Origin: a virus
DNA length: 20,767 nt
Direction: 5' to 3' (one strand)
IMG/VR virus record: IMGVR_UViG_3300032050_000990
Location: 1 to 20,767 of that record
Below, in pieces: positions 1 through 20,653 of this stretch. Both the position numbers and the translations under genes were made by a program. The stretch's first letter is position 1, and every line of letters begins with the position of its first letter. The notes below the pieces were generated by a model. That model made no database searches. It worked only from the letters and a program-made list of their open reading frames with translations, and was not told the DNA's origin.

Positions 1-200
1 AGCTGCTGATGCTCCTCCTGATCCATGAGGAGGACGTCCTCATCGGCCCCACTGTCGGAGCCCTCGACGCCATAGTGGATGATATAGTGCCCCATCGGCC
101 GCATCATCCGGGCGAACTTGTGGACCTTCTGCGTGAATGCACAATGCGACCAGTCCCGCGTGGTCACCGAGTGCGGAATGCCGAGCAAGTGGAGACGCAT
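1..200 (-). CDS. Putative glycosyltransferase, N-terminal fragment (3' end outside window)
   Basis: An ATG at 200 opens a frame that runs off the left edge without a stop, giving about 66 residues. A GGAGG-type ribosome binding site lies about 8 bases upstream, and the start is 25 bases past the stop of the tail-tip gene, so it is the next gene of the same operon. The visible residues begin MRLHLLGIPH, followed by CAFTQKVHKFARMM, GHYIIHYGVE and an acidic stretch. This resembles the first beta-strand/loop/helix of GT-B glycosyltransferases encoded by uncultured tailed phages, where similar openings (G-PH-, CAFTQKV, K-GH-V-HYG) occur. The catalytic C-terminal half is not visible, so the call rests on recall of the N-terminal pattern alone. 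If right, it would transfer a sugar from a nucleotide-sugar donor to a virion, DNA or cell-surface acceptor that cannot be determined here. Confidence 0.55.
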   Translation of the reverse strand, partial: MRLHLLGIPHSVTTRDWSHCAFTQKVHKFARMMRPMGHYIIHYGVEGSDSGADEDVLLMDQEEHQQ

Positions 201-4904: not shown

Positions 4905-6670
4905 CAGACACTCCCTCGCCGTTGGGCGTTCCGCATGAGCTCCTGCATCTGCCGCTGGGCCGCGGGATCATTCGGGCCCACGATCGTGACATTCATGGGC
5001 GCCATGGCTGCGATCGTGGCCGAGCTGCCCGCCGCGGTCGGCCCATAAAACTGGGTGGGCAGGGTCATGGCGCCAGCCGCTGACGCCCCAAGAGCTGATG
5101 CCATCATGGCCGAGCCGCCGCCAGCAGCAGGAGCCCCGCCACCGAAGGCCGCCGTGGCTGCCCCGCGGAGGGCCGCGCCAATGGCGATCATGCCGATGCC
5201 GGCCGCCACAAGGCCCTGCGGGCTCAGCGAAAGCAACGCCGCTCGGACCTTTTCCATCAGCGCCCCGATCGGGATCAGCGCCGTGCCGAAGGTGATCAGC
5301 ATGGAGCCGAGCCCCGACAGCATGGTCTTGGTAAACTCCTTGAACCCTTGCGTGATGCTGCCAGTCGCAATGGCTGCTTCAATGCCTGCCGCGAAGGAAT
5401 CCACCATGATGTCGCGGAATGCCGTGGCGATGGCCGTGGCAAAGTCGGTCATCTCGGCCAGATAGGTCGATGCCGCCACGCCCATGAAATCCGTGGCGCC
5501 TGGCTTGAGCAAGGCCTCGAGCTTGGCCTTATCGAGCGTGATCGGCTTGGGTCCGAGCGCGGCCTGCACCGGCATGGATGTGGACTGCGCCGTCATGCGC
5601 TCGATATCGAACTTCACCGGCTTCAGGCTGTTGAGCTTGAGCTCGGTCCGCATCTCATCCGTCAGCTCCTTCTTGGCCGCGGCCACCTTCCGCGTGGCCG
5701 TTTCCTCTTTGGTCAGCCCCAGAATGATGTTCTCCTGCTCGGCTTCGTACTGCTGCAGCACCTTCATGTAGGCGCGGTACTCGTCCCCGCTCATCGTCAG
5801 GAACGCCTTGATCTCCTCAAAGAGGACGCCGGCGTTGAGCCCGAAGAGCTGAATGGCCTGCCGCACACTGGTCAGCGCGTTGTTCAGGACATTGAGCGCC
5901 TTGATGATGAACTCGATGGCGCCGACCACGCCCTCGGAGGCGCTCTCGGAGATCTCAAACAGGTCGCCGAAGGCATTGCCCAGCCGGGCGATGGCCCCGC
6001 CCAAGGTCTTGCCGGCCGCCTCCGCGGAGCCGCCGAACTGCGTCTCAAGCTCCTTGAGGATCACGGTCTGGGCCTCGGCCAGCTGATTGGTCTCCACCAG
6101 CGACGCAATCATCGCCTTCTGGTCTTCCGAAAACTGGATGCCGGACCGGCTCAGGGCGGCGATGCCATGGATCGGATCCTGCAGCGCCTTACCCACTTGA
6201 ATGGTGGCGCCCTGCAGGTCGGTCCCCATGGCCTGCGCCACGTCCGCGATGGCCTTGGTAGCCCGCGGGAAGATGTCGCCCTGCACCTTGGTGAAGGTGA
6301 GGAGCAGCGACTGCGAGGCCGTGACGGCATCGTCCGCGAAGACCGTGGTCTCCTGCAGCGCCCCGGCCATGGCATTGAGCTGGTCCACCGACTGGCCGGC
6401 CACGTTGCCCGTGCTCTTGAGCGCGGCCCGAAGCTGGGCCTGCGCGAACTGGGCCGCGGAGGTCTCGTCGATCAGCTTCTTGAAGAAGGTGCCCGCGGCG
6501 GCCAAGGTGGCCAGATTCTTAAGGCTGCCCTTGAGCTCGCTGACGGCATCGTCTAGTGCCGTGGCGTTCTTCTCAGACTCCTTGAATGACCGGCCGAGGC
6601 TCTCCACTGCGGCCTTGACCGCGGCCCCGCCCTCCTCCTTGAGCCGAAGACTCAGCGCAAAGACGTCCAT
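4904..6670 (-). CDS. Tail tape measure protein
   Basis: This 588-residue protein is helical at both ends of its first half and has the usual tape-measure core at residues 100-240: a segment resembling ALxDPIxGIxALSRxGIxFSxxQ at 162-184, then VETNQLAEAQ and LGGAIARLGNAFGDLFE at 223-239. Similar stretches occur in TP901/lambda-type tape measures. Residues 450-510 are hydrophobic (LITFGTALIPIGAL, GIGMIAIGAALRGAA), fitting the membrane-active segment of these proteins. The C-terminus is Gly/Ala-rich and then basic. The ATG lies 2 bases after the chaperone stop with a GGAG site upstream. By the rule of about 0.15 nm per residue it predicts a tail of roughly 88 nm, short for a siphovirus. It sets tail length and scaffolds tube polymerisation with the chaperones encoded just upstream. 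Confidence 0.9.
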   Translation of the reverse strand: MDVFALSLRLKEEGGAAVKAAVESLGRSFKESEKNATALDDAVSELKGSLKNLATLAAAGTFFKKLIDETSAAQFAQAQLRAALKSTGNVAGQSVDQLNAMAGALQETTVFADDAVTASQSLLLTFTKVQGDIFPRATKAIADVAQAMGTDLQGATIQVGKALQDPIHGIAALSRSGIQFSEDQKAMIASLVETNQLAEAQTVILKELETQFGGSAEAAGKTLGGAIARLGNAFGDLFEISESASEGVVGAIEFIIKALNVLNNALTSVRQAIQLFGLNAGVLFEEIKAFLTMSGDEYRAYMKVLQQYEAEQENIILGLTKEETATRKVAAAKKELTDEMRTELKLNSLKPVKFDIERMTAQSTSMPVQAALGPKPITLDKAKLEALLKPGATDFMGVAASTYLAEMTDFATAIATAFRDIMVDSFAAGIEAAIATGSITQGFKEFTKTMLSGLGSMLITFGTALIPIGALMEKVRAALLSLSPQGLVAAGIGMIAIGAALRGAATAAFGGGAPAAGGGSAMMASALGASAAGAMTLPTQFYGPTAAGSSATIAAMAPMNVTIVGPNDPAAQRQMQELMRNAQRRGSV

Positions 6671-17007: not shown

Positions 17008-17412
17008 TCAGGTCTCCGTCAGGAGGTGATAGCCGTCTTTCACCTCGACGGCCTCGTAGATCTCGAAGGTGGCGTACTCGGTCGGGTCCACGAGCTCGAG
17101 CGTCAGCCGCTGGCATCGGAGGGCCCGTTGCAGGTAGACGCCCCGGATCATGTACAGCGGCCCGTCGCCCTCGCGGAGGGCCCCGAACTTGGGCACCTCG
17201 ACGTAATCGGCGACCGTGGCGACCGCCGCGGTCCGGCTCTCGAGATGACTCTGCGGGGCCAGCGGGATCTCTTGGGCGTCCGCCGTATCGTCCAGACGGC
17301 CCCACCATTCCCCGGTCTTGACGTAGACCGGCCGGCCGAAGCCACCGCCGCCGGCCTCCTGCCGCTCGTACAGGGTCAGCCGGCGATCCAAGAGCCCCGG
17401 CGCCACGGTCAC
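17008..17412 (-). CDS. Head-closure / head-tail adaptor protein
   Basis: This protein of about 134 residues contains GLLDRRLTLYERQEAGGGGF, GEWWGRLDDTADAQEIPL, and DYVEVPKFGALREGDGPLYMIRGV, ending with ALRCQRLTLELVD. The opening 'L--R-TL-', the W-R segment and the late 'Y-I-GV' match SPP1 gp16/HK97 gp7-type head-tail joining proteins, which close the connector ring after DNA packaging. I place the start at GTG 17412, where GTGA overlaps the connector stop. A longer frame from GTG 17454 exists but would overlap more with no better ribosome binding site. It directly follows the connector gene as in related phages. Confidence 0.78.
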   Translation of the reverse strand: MTVAPGLLDRRLTLYERQEAGGGGFGRPVYVKTGEWWGRLDDTADAQEIPLAPQSHLESRTAAVATVADYVEVPKFGALREGDGPLYMIRGVYLQRALRCQRLTLELVDPTEYATFEIYEAVEVKDGYHLLTET

Positions 17413-17969
17413 TGGGCCACCCCGAGCTTGAGGAGGCGCAGCGTCTTCATGCACCGGGCCACGGTCTCGCGGCTGGCGTCCCAGGTAATTGAGGTGCCGG
17501 CAGCCGTCTCGGAGGCGGCGCCCGGCGTCCGGCGCTGGTACAGGTCCGCGGCGAGGTCGATGATGACCTCATTGAGCAGCGGCTCGAGCGCGGCGTAGTC
17601 CTGCCGAAGCGAGAGCCCGACGTTGGCCGTGATCGTGTAGGGGCCATAGGGGAAGGTGACCCCATCCTTGCCATAGATGACGCCGGAGCGGCCGTCGACC
17701 CAGTAGTCCGCGGCCGAGACGGCCATGCCGTCGCTGTCCACGATCGCCGTGACGGCGCACGGCCGGCGCGGGAAGACGAGCGAGGTGACTGGCAGGTCCA
17801 GCGCGTCCGCCCGGTCAATGGCCGACTGGCTGGTCGCCGTAATGGGCGTATCGGTCCAGAGCTCGAGCATGGCCTTGGCCCGGCCGAGCAGCGCCGTTAG
17901 GAGGGCGTTCTCGGCCGACGACTCGATGCGGAGGTAATCCTTGAGGTCAGAGAGGGTTGGCAGGGCCAC
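17409..17969 (-). CDS. gp6-like head-tail connector protein
   Basis: The protein (about 186 residues) contains LSDLKDYLRIESSAENALL followed by LLGRAKAMLELWTDTPI, the typical N-terminal helices of the HK97 gp6-like connector family. Later come FPRRPCAVTAIVDSDG, YWVDGRSGVIYGKDG and FPYGPYTITANVGLSL, then a C-terminal helix LLNEVIIDLAADLYQRRTPG, all in family order. Twelve or thirteen copies would form the ring beneath the portal. I start at GTG 17969, with GAGG upstream, which overlaps the glycosyltransferase gene by 23 bases. An ATG at 18047 would add 26 residues (MSMCAGCMIIEPSAPS) unlike the family, so I prefer the short start. Confidence 0.85.
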   Translation of the reverse strand: MALPTLSDLKDYLRIESSAENALLTALLGRAKAMLELWTDTPITATSQSAIDRADALDLPVTSLVFPRRPCAVTAIVDSDGMAVSAADYWVDGRSGVIYGKDGVTFPYGPYTITANVGLSLRQDYAALEPLLNEVIIDLAADLYQRRTPGAASETAAGTSITWDASRETVARCMKTLRLLKLGVAQ

Positions 17970-19293
17970 GGCCCAGAGCCTCGCGGAGGAAGGTGGCGTA
18001 CTGGGCGCCGACGGCTCGATAATCATGCAGCCGGCGCACATACTCATGCACCCGGACCGCCTCGGCCCGGTAAAACATCGCGTCTTGCGCCAGCCGCCGG
18101 ATGACGTAGCGCAGCGTCTCTTTGTCGTTGGCGTAGGTCCACGGGATCAGGTCGCCATTCAGGCGGGCCGCCTCGTCTGCGGCGAGCGGATCGCCGGCAA
18201 TGACTGGCTGGCCCATGGCCGCGCCCTCGAGGCCGGAGCCCTGCATCCCGAGCCAGAAGCTGTCAAAGGTGGCGTGGCAGGTGGCCTTCCGCCGGAGCGC
18301 CTCGCCGTGATCCATGTTCTCAATGAGGACGACCTCGCACCGGACGTCGTCCAGCACCTTGCATTCCTCGACCGCCTCGAGGAGGACGCTCGTGCCCTTG
18401 ATGGCCCGCTTGGTCGGGCTGTGCGCGATGCGAAAGGGGCCGCTCGCCGGCTTGGCCACGAGCGGCAGGTAGTCGTCCACCGGCACCGGGATCGGCAGAT
18501 ACCGCGTGATGCCGTGCCGGCCGTGGTACGGACGAGCCCCGAACTGGATGGCCCGGTTGCGGCGGTCCGCGTCCTCGTCGACGTAGGTCTTCCGCGGATC
18601 ATCCGGCAGCATCGACCCGTGATAGGTGATGGCCACCCGCTGATCCGGCCAGAGGCTGTACTTGAGATCCTGATGCAGCGTCCGGTAGTCCATGTGGACG
18701 TGGATGACGTCAGCCGTCATCGCCAGAAACTCCACCGTCTGCCGGTGCAGGTCGCCATCCCACTGCCGGAGGTGGCAGTGCGGGTTGCTGTAGCCCCAGC
18801 GGGCGAAGGCCGAGACCACGCCGGGGTCGGTGTTGGCCGCGGCATGGTAGCGGTAGGCCGCCGCGCCGGGATCATAATGGGTGAGCTGCAGCACGCGGAT
18901 GGCATCCGGCGCCGGCGTCGCGGGCGCATAGAGCGACGGCACACCTTCCGGCGAAAGGATCCGGCCAGCCGCGGCCCAGAGCTGGGCGGCCTTCTGATCG
19001 TCCACCACGAGCGTCTGCGGGGTCAGGCTGGGCCGCGTGGCGGCCATCTCGCGCCAAAGCGCGGCCCCGGTCGGATGCATCAGCTCGAAGAACGCATCCG
19101 GCATAACGTGCCCAACGGCTGCCAAGGCATCGGCCCGATCCTTTCGGACGCGGAACCGTTCGCCAGGAGCCCGTCGGACGTTGTCCACAATGCACCGCGC
19201 CACCGCCGTCACGTCGACCATCTCCTCCAGTCGACCCAACGGCAGGGCCGCCGAGGAGACCGAAGCCTCCCCGGCGTCCTGCGTCTGGCTCAT
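17947..19293 (-). CDS. Glycosyltransferase-like protein (GT-B fold) within the head module
   Basis: The frame from ATG 19293 gives 448 residues. Residues 133-290 and 290-430 look like the two Rossmann-like halves of a GT-B glycosyltransferase. Signs are RVLQLTHYDPG at 133, TADVIHVHMDYRTLH at 193, the phrase FRIAHSPTKRAIKGTSVLLEAVEE at 287 that resembles GT4 and related proteins (H-P-NR-IKG---L-EA), and GLEGAAMGQPVIAGDPLA at 354, the donor-binding E-x-G-x-P-V-like region. Residues 1-130 are an extra N-terminal region not found in most GT-B enzymes. The gene lies between capsid and connector genes, after a 4-base gap, with a weak ribosome binding site. An upstream in-frame ATG at 19317 would overlap the capsid gene. 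It probably adds sugar to a phage or host acceptor, unknown from sequence. Confidence 0.75.
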   Translation of the reverse strand: MSQTQDAGEASVSSAALPLGRLEEMVDVTAVARCIVDNVRRAPGERFRVRKDRADALAAVGHVMPDAFFELMHPTGAALWREMAATRPSLTPQTLVVDDQKAAQLWAAAGRILSPEGVPSLYAPATPAPDAIRVLQLTHYDPGAAAYRYHAAANTDPGVVSAFARWGYSNPHCHLRQWDGDLHRQTVEFLAMTADVIHVHMDYRTLHQDLKYSLWPDQRVAITYHGSMLPDDPRKTYVDEDADRRNRAIQFGARPYHGRHGITRYLPIPVPVDDYLPLVAKPASGPFRIAHSPTKRAIKGTSVLLEAVEECKVLDDVRCEVVLIENMDHGEALRRKATCHATFDSFWLGMQGSGLEGAAMGQPVIAGDPLAADEAARLNGDLIPWTYANDKETLRYVIRRLAQDAMFYRAEAVRVHEYVRRLHDYRAVGAQYATFLREALGRGPANPL

Positions 19294-19297
19294 CCGA

Positions 19298-20653
19298 TCA
19301 GGACGAGGCCGGGACATCGAGGACCACGAACGGCGAGTGCGGGTCCACCTTGTTCCCCGAGCCGTCCACCTTGTAGGCGTAGGTCGAGGTCGGGAGGGGG
19401 ATACCGCCGCCACGCGCCACGAAGCGGTAGGTCGTGACGTCCTGCACGAACGCGACGTGGATCGAGGACTCCACCGTCAGGGCCTGCCGGAGCCCCATGG
19501 CGTAGAAGTCGCCGTTCACCAGCGCCACATCGCCCTTGGTGCCGATCGTCGGGAGCAGGTCGGTGACGATGACCGGCAGCCCGAGGAGCAGCATCTGCGG
19601 CTTGTCGCGCAGGTTCGCGATCCAGGTCACCATGGTGTTGTTGGTGGTCTGGAGGGCGAACAGCTTGGCCAGCACCCGGCGGGAGACCATCCAGACCGAG
19701 TTGGGGCCATGCGTGTGCTGCTGGTACATCGAGAACGCATCCGCCGCGGTGAACGTGTCGGCCGTCGCCCGGTTGACGGCGATGAGCGACGTGTTGTTAT
19801 CGTTCAGCGCCCCGAGCGGCTGGCTCGAGCCCGTGCCGTCGATCGTGATGTCTTCATTCATCTTGTTCACGATCTGCCCGCCCACGGCCGTGGTGACCTC
19901 GCTGGGCAGCTCGCCCGTGAAGTCGTCGCCCAGGAGCTCGTCGCCGAACTGGGTGATGGCCGCGTACTTGTACATCGTCAGCAGCCGCTGGCCGAACGTC
20001 GGCTCGCGGGTCGGCTTGGTTGAGCCTTCGCCCACGATCGTCACGTTGGCGATCTTACCGGCCATCGGACGGTTGAGGGTCGTGGTGCCCTCATCCTGCA
20101 CGAGGTACGGGATGCGGAGCGACCGGCCCGGCACGTTGTACCGGCGGGCGTACTGAAACAGGCCAGGCTGCTGGTTCGAGACCGAGAAGATCTCCGGCAC
20201 CTGCGTCAGCGGGAGCAGGTACTCGCCGCCGTTGGTGGAGCCGGTAATCGTGCGGGTCATCAGGTCCACCTGCTTCAGCGCCTCAGCCTCGCGGCCGTTG
20301 GCCGGCCCGCGGGTGGCCGCCCGGATGTAGCTGCCCACATTCGGGAACGCCTGCACGATGGCCGAGCGCACCTCGGTCATGGCATCGGCCATGCCGGAGA
20401 ACTCGCTGCGGTCAGCGCCGGCATCGACCCGGACCAGCTCGGCATCGCCGCCCTGGCGGGAGACTTCGGCATCCGGCGTAAACTCGGCGGCCGTCTGGGC
20501 CCGCATCTCGAGGGACCGGATCTCGGAGGTCATGCGCTCAACCTCTTCGGCCGTGTAGCTGTTGGTCGGGTCGACCAGGTCGTGACGGATCTTGTGGGCC
20601 TGCTCGCGGAGCGCCGCGGCCGCCCGGTTCTTGGAAACCAGCGGGGTCTTCAT
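19298..20653 (-). CDS. HK97-fold major capsid protein with N-terminal delta domain
   Basis: This 451-residue protein has the length and order of HK97 gp5-type capsid proteins. Residues 1-100 are charged and helical (ALREQAHKIRHDL, YTAEEVERMTSEIRSLEMR), the delta or scaffold domain that prohead protease removes in this family. From about residue 135 come TRTITGSTNGGEYLLP, then QVPEIFSVSNQQPGLFQYAR, IPYLVQDEGTTTL, VGEGSTKPT and FGQRLLTMYKYAAITQFGDELL, the classical E-loop/P-domain order, and later SVWMVSRRVLAKLFAL, GLPVIVTDLLP, ALVNGDFYAMGLRQALTVESS and FVARGGGI. It starts at ATG 20653 with GAGGTG upstream, and this ATG overlaps the TGA of the preceding gene. It forms the icosahedral shell. Whether it crosslinks is not known. 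Confidence 0.93.
   Translation of the reverse strand: MKTPLVSKNRAAAALREQAHKIRHDLVDPTNSYTAEEVERMTSEIRSLEMRAQTAAEFTPDAEVSRQGGDAELVRVDAGADRSEFSGMADAMTEVRSAIVQAFPNVGSYIRAATRGPANGREAEALKQVDLMTRTITGSTNGGEYLLPLTQVPEIFSVSNQQPGLFQYARRYNVPGRSLRIPYLVQDEGTTTLNRPMAGKIANVTIVGEGSTKPTREPTFGQRLLTMYKYAAITQFGDELLGDDFTGELPSEVTTAVGGQIVNKMNEDITIDGTGSSQPLGALNDNNTSLIAVNRATADTFTAADAFSMYQQHTHGPNSVWMVSRRVLAKLFALQTTNNTMVTWIANLRDKPQMLLLGLPVIVTDLLPTIGTKGDVALVNGDFYAMGLRQALTVESSIHVAFVQDVTTYRFVARGGGIPLPTSTYAYKVDGSGNKVDPHSPFVVLDVPASS

Follow-up and report, generated by a model that had tools for sequence, protein, structure and literature searches.

The window analysed here, a stretch of 20,767 nucleotides corresponding to positions 1 to 20,767 of the IMG/VR virus record IMGVR_UViG_3300032050_000990, encodes on its minus strand an HK97-type major capsid protein (MCP, 19298..20653; PF05065 at 5.6e-24, phrog_10 at 1.2e-31) and a gp6-like head-tail adaptor (17409..17969; PF05135 at 1.8e-6, phrog_442 at 8.4e-17). 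The slot between these two genes is filled by a minus-strand ORF that is open without interruption from 17947 to 19293 and encodes 448 aa from ATG 19293. In an earlier note on this DNA, it had been read as a glycosyltransferase (GT) gene lying 4 bases from the capsid gene and overlapping the connector. In agreement with this description, the ORF contains both phrases quoted there, IKGTSVLLEAV and GLEGAAMGQPVIAG, the MCP stop is found 4 bases upstream of ATG 19293, and the adaptor ORF, which reaches up to ATG 18047 (17409-18047), overlaps the GT ORF by 101 nt. The gene limits can be refined by comparison with relatives. At 19317, an in-frame ATG (MSRPRPDR-MSQTQ..) extends the GT frame into an overlap of 20 nt with the MCP gene, and as a start at this place is shared by most GT-bearing relatives and by the stand-alone small gene of a GT-free clade described below, a GT gene of 17947-19317 encoding 456 aa is likelier than the shorter version. 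Likewise, the adaptor family begins with GTG-ALPT, so that GTG 17969 is probably the true adaptor start, leaving an overlap with the GT gene of about 23 nt. With the revised starts, the GT gene is thus likely to overlap both neighbours by about 20 nt each.

Naming the GT protein (P0002) by annotation is impossible, as it does not match anything in Pfam, PHROG, NCBIfam, PDB sequences or the 50,697 phage records of INPHARED; a lone NCBIfam hit and several hits among PDB profiles (ADC beta-lactamase, mL53) were at chance level and have been dropped. Nevertheless, the ORF is not a chance product, considering the 76 residues invariant over 25 non-redundant members and the NG86 dN/dS values of 0.22-0.37 in six pairs, which indicate purifying selection. 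The AF2 model obtained from a 12-member alignment (pLDDT 80, pTM 0.76) shows two Rossmann domains with an inter-domain cleft in residues 129-443 of the 448-aa form (17965..18909, minus strand), that is, a GT-B fold. Best Foldseek matches are PimA (E 1e-10), sucrose-phosphate synthase, BA1558, PglA, BshA and HepE (E 1e-8 to 1e-10). By VIA-align, 260-300 residues, all located within 129-443 and hence outside the N-terminal domain, can be aligned with retaining GT4/GT5/AGT enzymes at Z values of 18-22.5 (BshA 22.5, T4 AGT 22.1, PglA 20.9, PimA 20.8). The structure prediction that had been proposed as a check consequently yielded a GT-B fold with Z values of 18-22 to solved GTs, and a GT fold of the gene product is near-certain.

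The accompanying profile search against GT families gave a divided result. Whereas P0002 itself lacks any Pfam match, several family members show subthreshold matches to PF13692, PF00534 and PF13524 (best 0.0026), so that the curated cut-offs of GT4, PF00534, PF13692 and PF13524 are reached neither by P0002 nor by its phage kin. A profile built from the family, however, retrieves cellular GT4-type proteins from 399 genomes of the order to which a Burkholderiales MAG with the gene belongs, at E values of 1e-14 to 1e-21 over the C-terminal domain (1e-15 to 1e-23 for L285-L291), and one of these proteins (L288) exceeds the PF00534 cut-off. The signature HAPTNR..KGT / D..xxG.yG..xxE.mA.GKPV is common to the cellular kin and the phage GT. 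Specifically, the cellular GT-like proteins L285-L291 ('VHAPTNR-KGT .. DQ-IGWYG-AVE-MA-GKPV') share it with the phage C-terminal domain but are encoded in bacterial genomes, possess no DUF7210-like domain and are not alignable in their N-terminal half. Taken together, the GT-B fold and the profile links to GT4-type proteins sustain the glycosyltransferase reading of the gene, which is very probably correct.

Invariant residues of the family are H225 (YHG), K299 (IKG), D344 and E356. Compared with BshA, PimA and PglA, the phage GT has in common the two-Rossmann GT-B fold (Z 20-22) and keeps the catalytic-type His and Lys as well as the second Glu of the EX7E motif (E356), but it is only 10-17% identical, bears an extra N-terminal domain and has, in every member, an invariant Leu348 in place of the first EX7E Glu. 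Hence, the motif does not guarantee catalysis, and the protein is labelled here as a GT4-like GT-B enzyme and not as a GT4 member. This Leu would fit a catalytically dead GT-B domain that serves the head only as a structural or binding element. Such a role is highly improbable given that H225, K299 and E356, all of cleft type, are among the 76 invariant residues and that the cellular kin also show D-x(4)-G..E without the first Glu, by which the Leu replacement looks like a subfamily feature. The best explanation of the model is a retaining, GT4-like GT-B glycosyltransferase, as a predicted activity.

A small DUF7210-like domain precedes the catalytic region (residues 25-66 of the 448-aa form; 19096..19221, minus strand) and can be delimited from subthreshold PF23843 matches and a homologous stand-alone gene. 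PF23843 (DUF7210) hits four of ten family N-termini (best 4.3e-4) and the stand-alone protein (0.0043), i.e., five of 11 sequences at the same stretch each time, all below the cut-off (14-20 bits versus 27 bits). The stand-alone gene, whose product of about 80 aa (MSRRRKPTATDEVVGGTPPTASP..GVRRLPGEVFEISAERAAVWRQKGLI..) is a homologue of the GT N-terminal region, occupies the MCP-adaptor slot in a GT-free clade (L134, L136, L138, L146, L147, L154 and kin), termed 'small' in the following. Because the N-region homologue stands alone in this clade and both it and several GT N-termini give subthreshold DUF7210 matches, the homology shows the predicted GT-B domain to be joined to the C-terminal side of a small, DUF7210-like domain native to the MCP-adaptor slot. 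Variations of this arrangement were observed as well. The GT of L019 lacks the N-terminal domain, its MCP has no serine tail, and a small membrane-protein-like ORF (MFILALLLGTAVVLGGLWLVHHYL..) is inserted between the MCP end at 5770 and the GT start at 5962. In the distantly related cultured Caulobacter phage W2, the MCP-connector slot is filled by a hypothetical protein of 244 aa (gp007, L292:4381-5115), a part of which (YRVKHQYTDKHTGRTHDAGSLVALTDKRHKELREDGGAGVV) resembles the small domain by eye while giving no Pfam match. Broken GT reading frames, due to either decay or sequencing error, were found in L089 (between the N-terminal and the GT domain) and in L082 (near the C-terminus).

A survey of the capsid-GT-connector order, as suggested in the earlier note, was performed on about 90 loci from viral contigs and from two MAG contigs (Burkholderiales, Gemmatimonadota), and nearly all of them show the order MCP-GT-adaptor, wherever flanks are present. 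The claim of an uncommon position has to be qualified. On the one hand, no published report of exactly this order and no paper describing an MCP-adjacent fused GT was found in the literature searched. On the other hand, GT genes in the head operon are known from cluster O mycobacteriophages such as Corndog, where they are located between portal and protease (PMC4351075), in contrast to the single GT found here between MCP and adaptor and fused to a DUF7210-like head-slot domain. Among 25 non-redundant GT-bearing loci, mean pairwise identity amounts to 79% for the mature MCP, 63% for the adaptor, 60% for the GT core and 36% for the N-terminal region. Scanning with the MCP alignment also revealed MCPs of about 80% identity without GT in the slot. 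Besides the 'small' clade, these comprise a second kind (L110-L118, L139, L144, L201 and kin) in which the slot is reduced to a short spacer. In the MCP tree, GT-free clades are nested among deep lineages that carry the GT, which requires four changes, most simply explained by four GT losses, the direction of change on this tree without inferred root being our inference.

Presence of the GT is mirrored at the very C-terminus of the MCP, which in the window ends with ..VPASS* (Ser450-Ser451 codons at 19301..19306, minus strand; the MCP itself gave a structure model of low confidence, pLDDT 44). MCPs of GT-bearing loci terminate with ..VPASS, VPAS, VVASS, PASA, NTASA, DTASA, DATS, EPAS or VVAS, those of GT-free loci with ..DAVTP, DVVTA, EPAA, EPGA, EPAGP or LN. 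When mapped on a tree calculated after exclusion of the tail columns, a Ser within the last three MCP residues is present in 25 of 26 GT-bearing versus none of 15 GT-free MCPs, and in an enlarged tree in 31 of 38 versus none of 15. Loci fetched after the idea had been formed follow the same pattern, with no Ser in 11 GT-free rows (ends GDEA, GDEE and DAVTP; most are from a new lineage, and two or three show the same contig a second time) and TASA as MCP end in the GT-bearing L276. Likewise, the Ser (DVPAS, DDVVAS, DGALS, DDVVTS, DDAVAS) is retained in the distant GT-bearing loci L301-L304, L311, L312 and L343. Ser is lost on all four inferred GT-loss branches, which make up 0.59 of the tree length of 11.7, and this is the sole rule of this kind among 1040 column-by-residue rules. 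The chance that four of five Ser losses coincide with GT-loss branches is about 3e-5 raw and about 0.03 after correction for the 1040 rules, while an independent-pairs test points in one direction in four of four pairs (two of two on well-supported branches), too few events to reach 0.05. Second-best in tracking the GT is MCP residue 326 (window numbering), which is Arg in all 25 GT-bearing MCPs first compared and Asn, Met or Lys in most GT-free ones.

As the MCP tail adjoins the GT gene, some of these changes could be joint deletions. Accordingly, the association might be a linkage artefact in which the GT has another role and a single deletion or recombination event altered the adjacent MCP tail. 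The overlap of the MCP 3' end with the GT 5' end in the window and the whole spacer being different in the 'none' clades would be compatible with this. However, in the 'small' clade the gene for the N-terminal domain is intact and the missing GT domain would start more than 200 nt downstream, yet Ser has been replaced (DEPAS to DEPAA/DEPGA); compared with the GT-bearing sister L065 (DEPAS*), the tails of this clade (DEPAA*/DEPGA*) differ at just the Ser residue. Moreover, deep GT-bearing lineages with non-overlapping genes retain the Ser (L017 with a tRNA in between, L091 and L301). Linkage is therefore an unlikely explanation. Nor can the tail be regarded as a by-product of frame overlap dictated by the start codon of the next gene: the 'small' clade has Ala instead of Ser although its frames overlap, and L017, L051, L091 and L301 show the reverse, a Ser without overlapping frames.

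A universal rule that GT implies a Ser tail is ruled out by one deep clade (L019, L295-L300), to which all seven Ser-less GT-bearing MCPs belong. Their tails are truncated, with six L019-related contigs ending with ..FVYLQ/N/D or similar. In this clade, either the acceptor is different or the hypothesis is wrong. The exception is also what would be expected if the target was a different protein of the virion or neck, such as adaptor, tail tube or fibres, with the N-terminal domain directing the GT to the neck and the MCP being marginal. The adjacency of GT and adaptor genes, the location of a second GT beside the tail genes and the glycans at tail-tube as well as capsid C-termini of mycobacteriophages, reported in PMC12619734 (citing Freeman 2023), agree with such a target. 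Conversely, no GT-linked Ser is seen at the C-terminal ends of the adaptor or other virion proteins where both states are comparable, GT-free tails of the major tail protein (phrog_885) being too few for comparison, and the MCP tail is the sole MCP column tracking all four losses, which makes another virion target distinctly unlikely. Regarding the proposal of the earlier note that the enzyme acts on virion proteins, the comparative data thus lead to a single candidate acceptor, the Ser at the MCP C-terminus, with the reservation of one GT-bearing clade not possessing it. With this in mind, we consider the MCP C-terminal Ser, O-glycosylated by the GT, to be a reasonably likely acceptor.

Most phage GTs of known function modify DNA bases or host surface polysaccharide, and the GT studied here might do the same, its place in the operon being incidental. 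T4 AGT, acting on hydroxymethylcytosine DNA, is indeed among the closest solved folds (Z 22). Resemblance at the level of GT-B is generic, however, the profile kin are cellular GT4-type proteins, and a DNA or O-antigen substrate would not predict the constant location between the MCP and adaptor genes, the fusion to a head-slot domain or the tracking of an MCP residue. The original assertion that neither DNA bases nor O-antigen are modified is therefore favoured by position, fusion and Ser tracking, leaving these substrates as a quite improbable rival.

The second, separate GT gene begins just after the tail genes and is cut by the window edge (3..200, minus strand; MRLHLLGIPHSVTTRDWSHCAFTQKV..). 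It is complete in relatives, where its homologue L281:6508-7623 clearly belongs to Glycos_transf_1 (PF00534 at 1.8e-18), and it is doubled in some of them (G012, G015-G018). By hhalign, no usable match was obtained between this protein and the MCP-adjacent family. As cause of the Ser tail, the second GT (P0003/P0004 family) was rejected, since it is also found in several phages without MCP-adjacent GT (G001-G005, G027), of which G001-G005 are all devoid of the Ser. One relative carries a C5-cytosine methylase.

Assuming that the MCP tail is the acceptor, the GT would be synthesized during late expression, take a nucleotide-activated host sugar (presumably an NDP-sugar) and O-glycosylate the Ser in the extreme C-terminal tail of the HK97-fold MCP, by which each subunit would receive a glycan and a capsid would display hundreds of short glycans. 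The N-terminal domain might be a relic of the slot protein of the sister phages, plausibly holding the GT on the head/neck assembly, and in lineages losing the GT the Ser tail would no longer be maintained. Tentatively, we propose that a hitherto undescribed family of head-tethered GTs decorates the MCP C-terminal Ser in widespread uncultured phages, and that at least four lineages have jointly lost enzyme and acceptor.

Phage capsid glycosylation has been demonstrated mainly in mycobacteriophages and is discussed as antibody shielding. As the phages considered here stem from environmental metagenomes (soil, water), antibodies are an unlikely reason and the trait should pay otherwise, possibly by particle stability, adhesion or interaction with the host surface. 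If true, capsid glycosylation would be a selectable trait that has been abandoned several times, in a setting outside animal immunity. Natural sister pairs with and without GT that differ in one acceptor residue (DEPAS versus DEPAA) make both substrate and benefit directly testable, and tail-residue tracking could serve as a cheap predictor of acceptors for other phage GTs. According to PMC12363180 and PMC11256854, glycosylated virions together with phage GTs are known from the mycobacteriophages Che8 (gp110), Corndog (gp38) and Myrna. These systems resemble the present one in the phage-encoded GT and the HK97-type capsid, the C-terminal glycans being reported there and proposed here; unlike them, the phages of this study are uncultured and have MAG links to Burkholderiales and Gemmatimonadota. 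By analogy, the function would be of the same kind as in mycobacteriophage capsids but accomplished by another enzyme family, with a domain fusion, another gene order and in other hosts.

Additional elements were noticed at the MCP-GT junction. In L017, a tRNA-Met (CAT) gene is located between MCP and GT (5842-5916), while a tRNA suspected by eye in L091 was not confirmed by ARAGORN. Directly 3' of the MCP stop, and in the window inside the GT frame, a GC-rich hairpin is predicted (19249..19276, minus strand; z -3.6). Corresponding z values of -2 to -4.3 were obtained in 14 of 15 loci (besides the window L007, L008, L010, L016, L023, L035, L051, L062, L065, L067, L112, L136 and L139), the hairpin being absent from the L201 lineage, and an alignment of 14 loci shows paired changes at seven of nine stem pairs. 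Often having a TTCG loop, the hairpin is kept within the coding frame of the GT or the small gene as well as in empty spacers of GT-free loci. Due to the missing T-run in the window, it is not interpreted as a terminator; rather, it may represent an mRNA-processing or attenuating element that could hold the GT level below that of the MCP.
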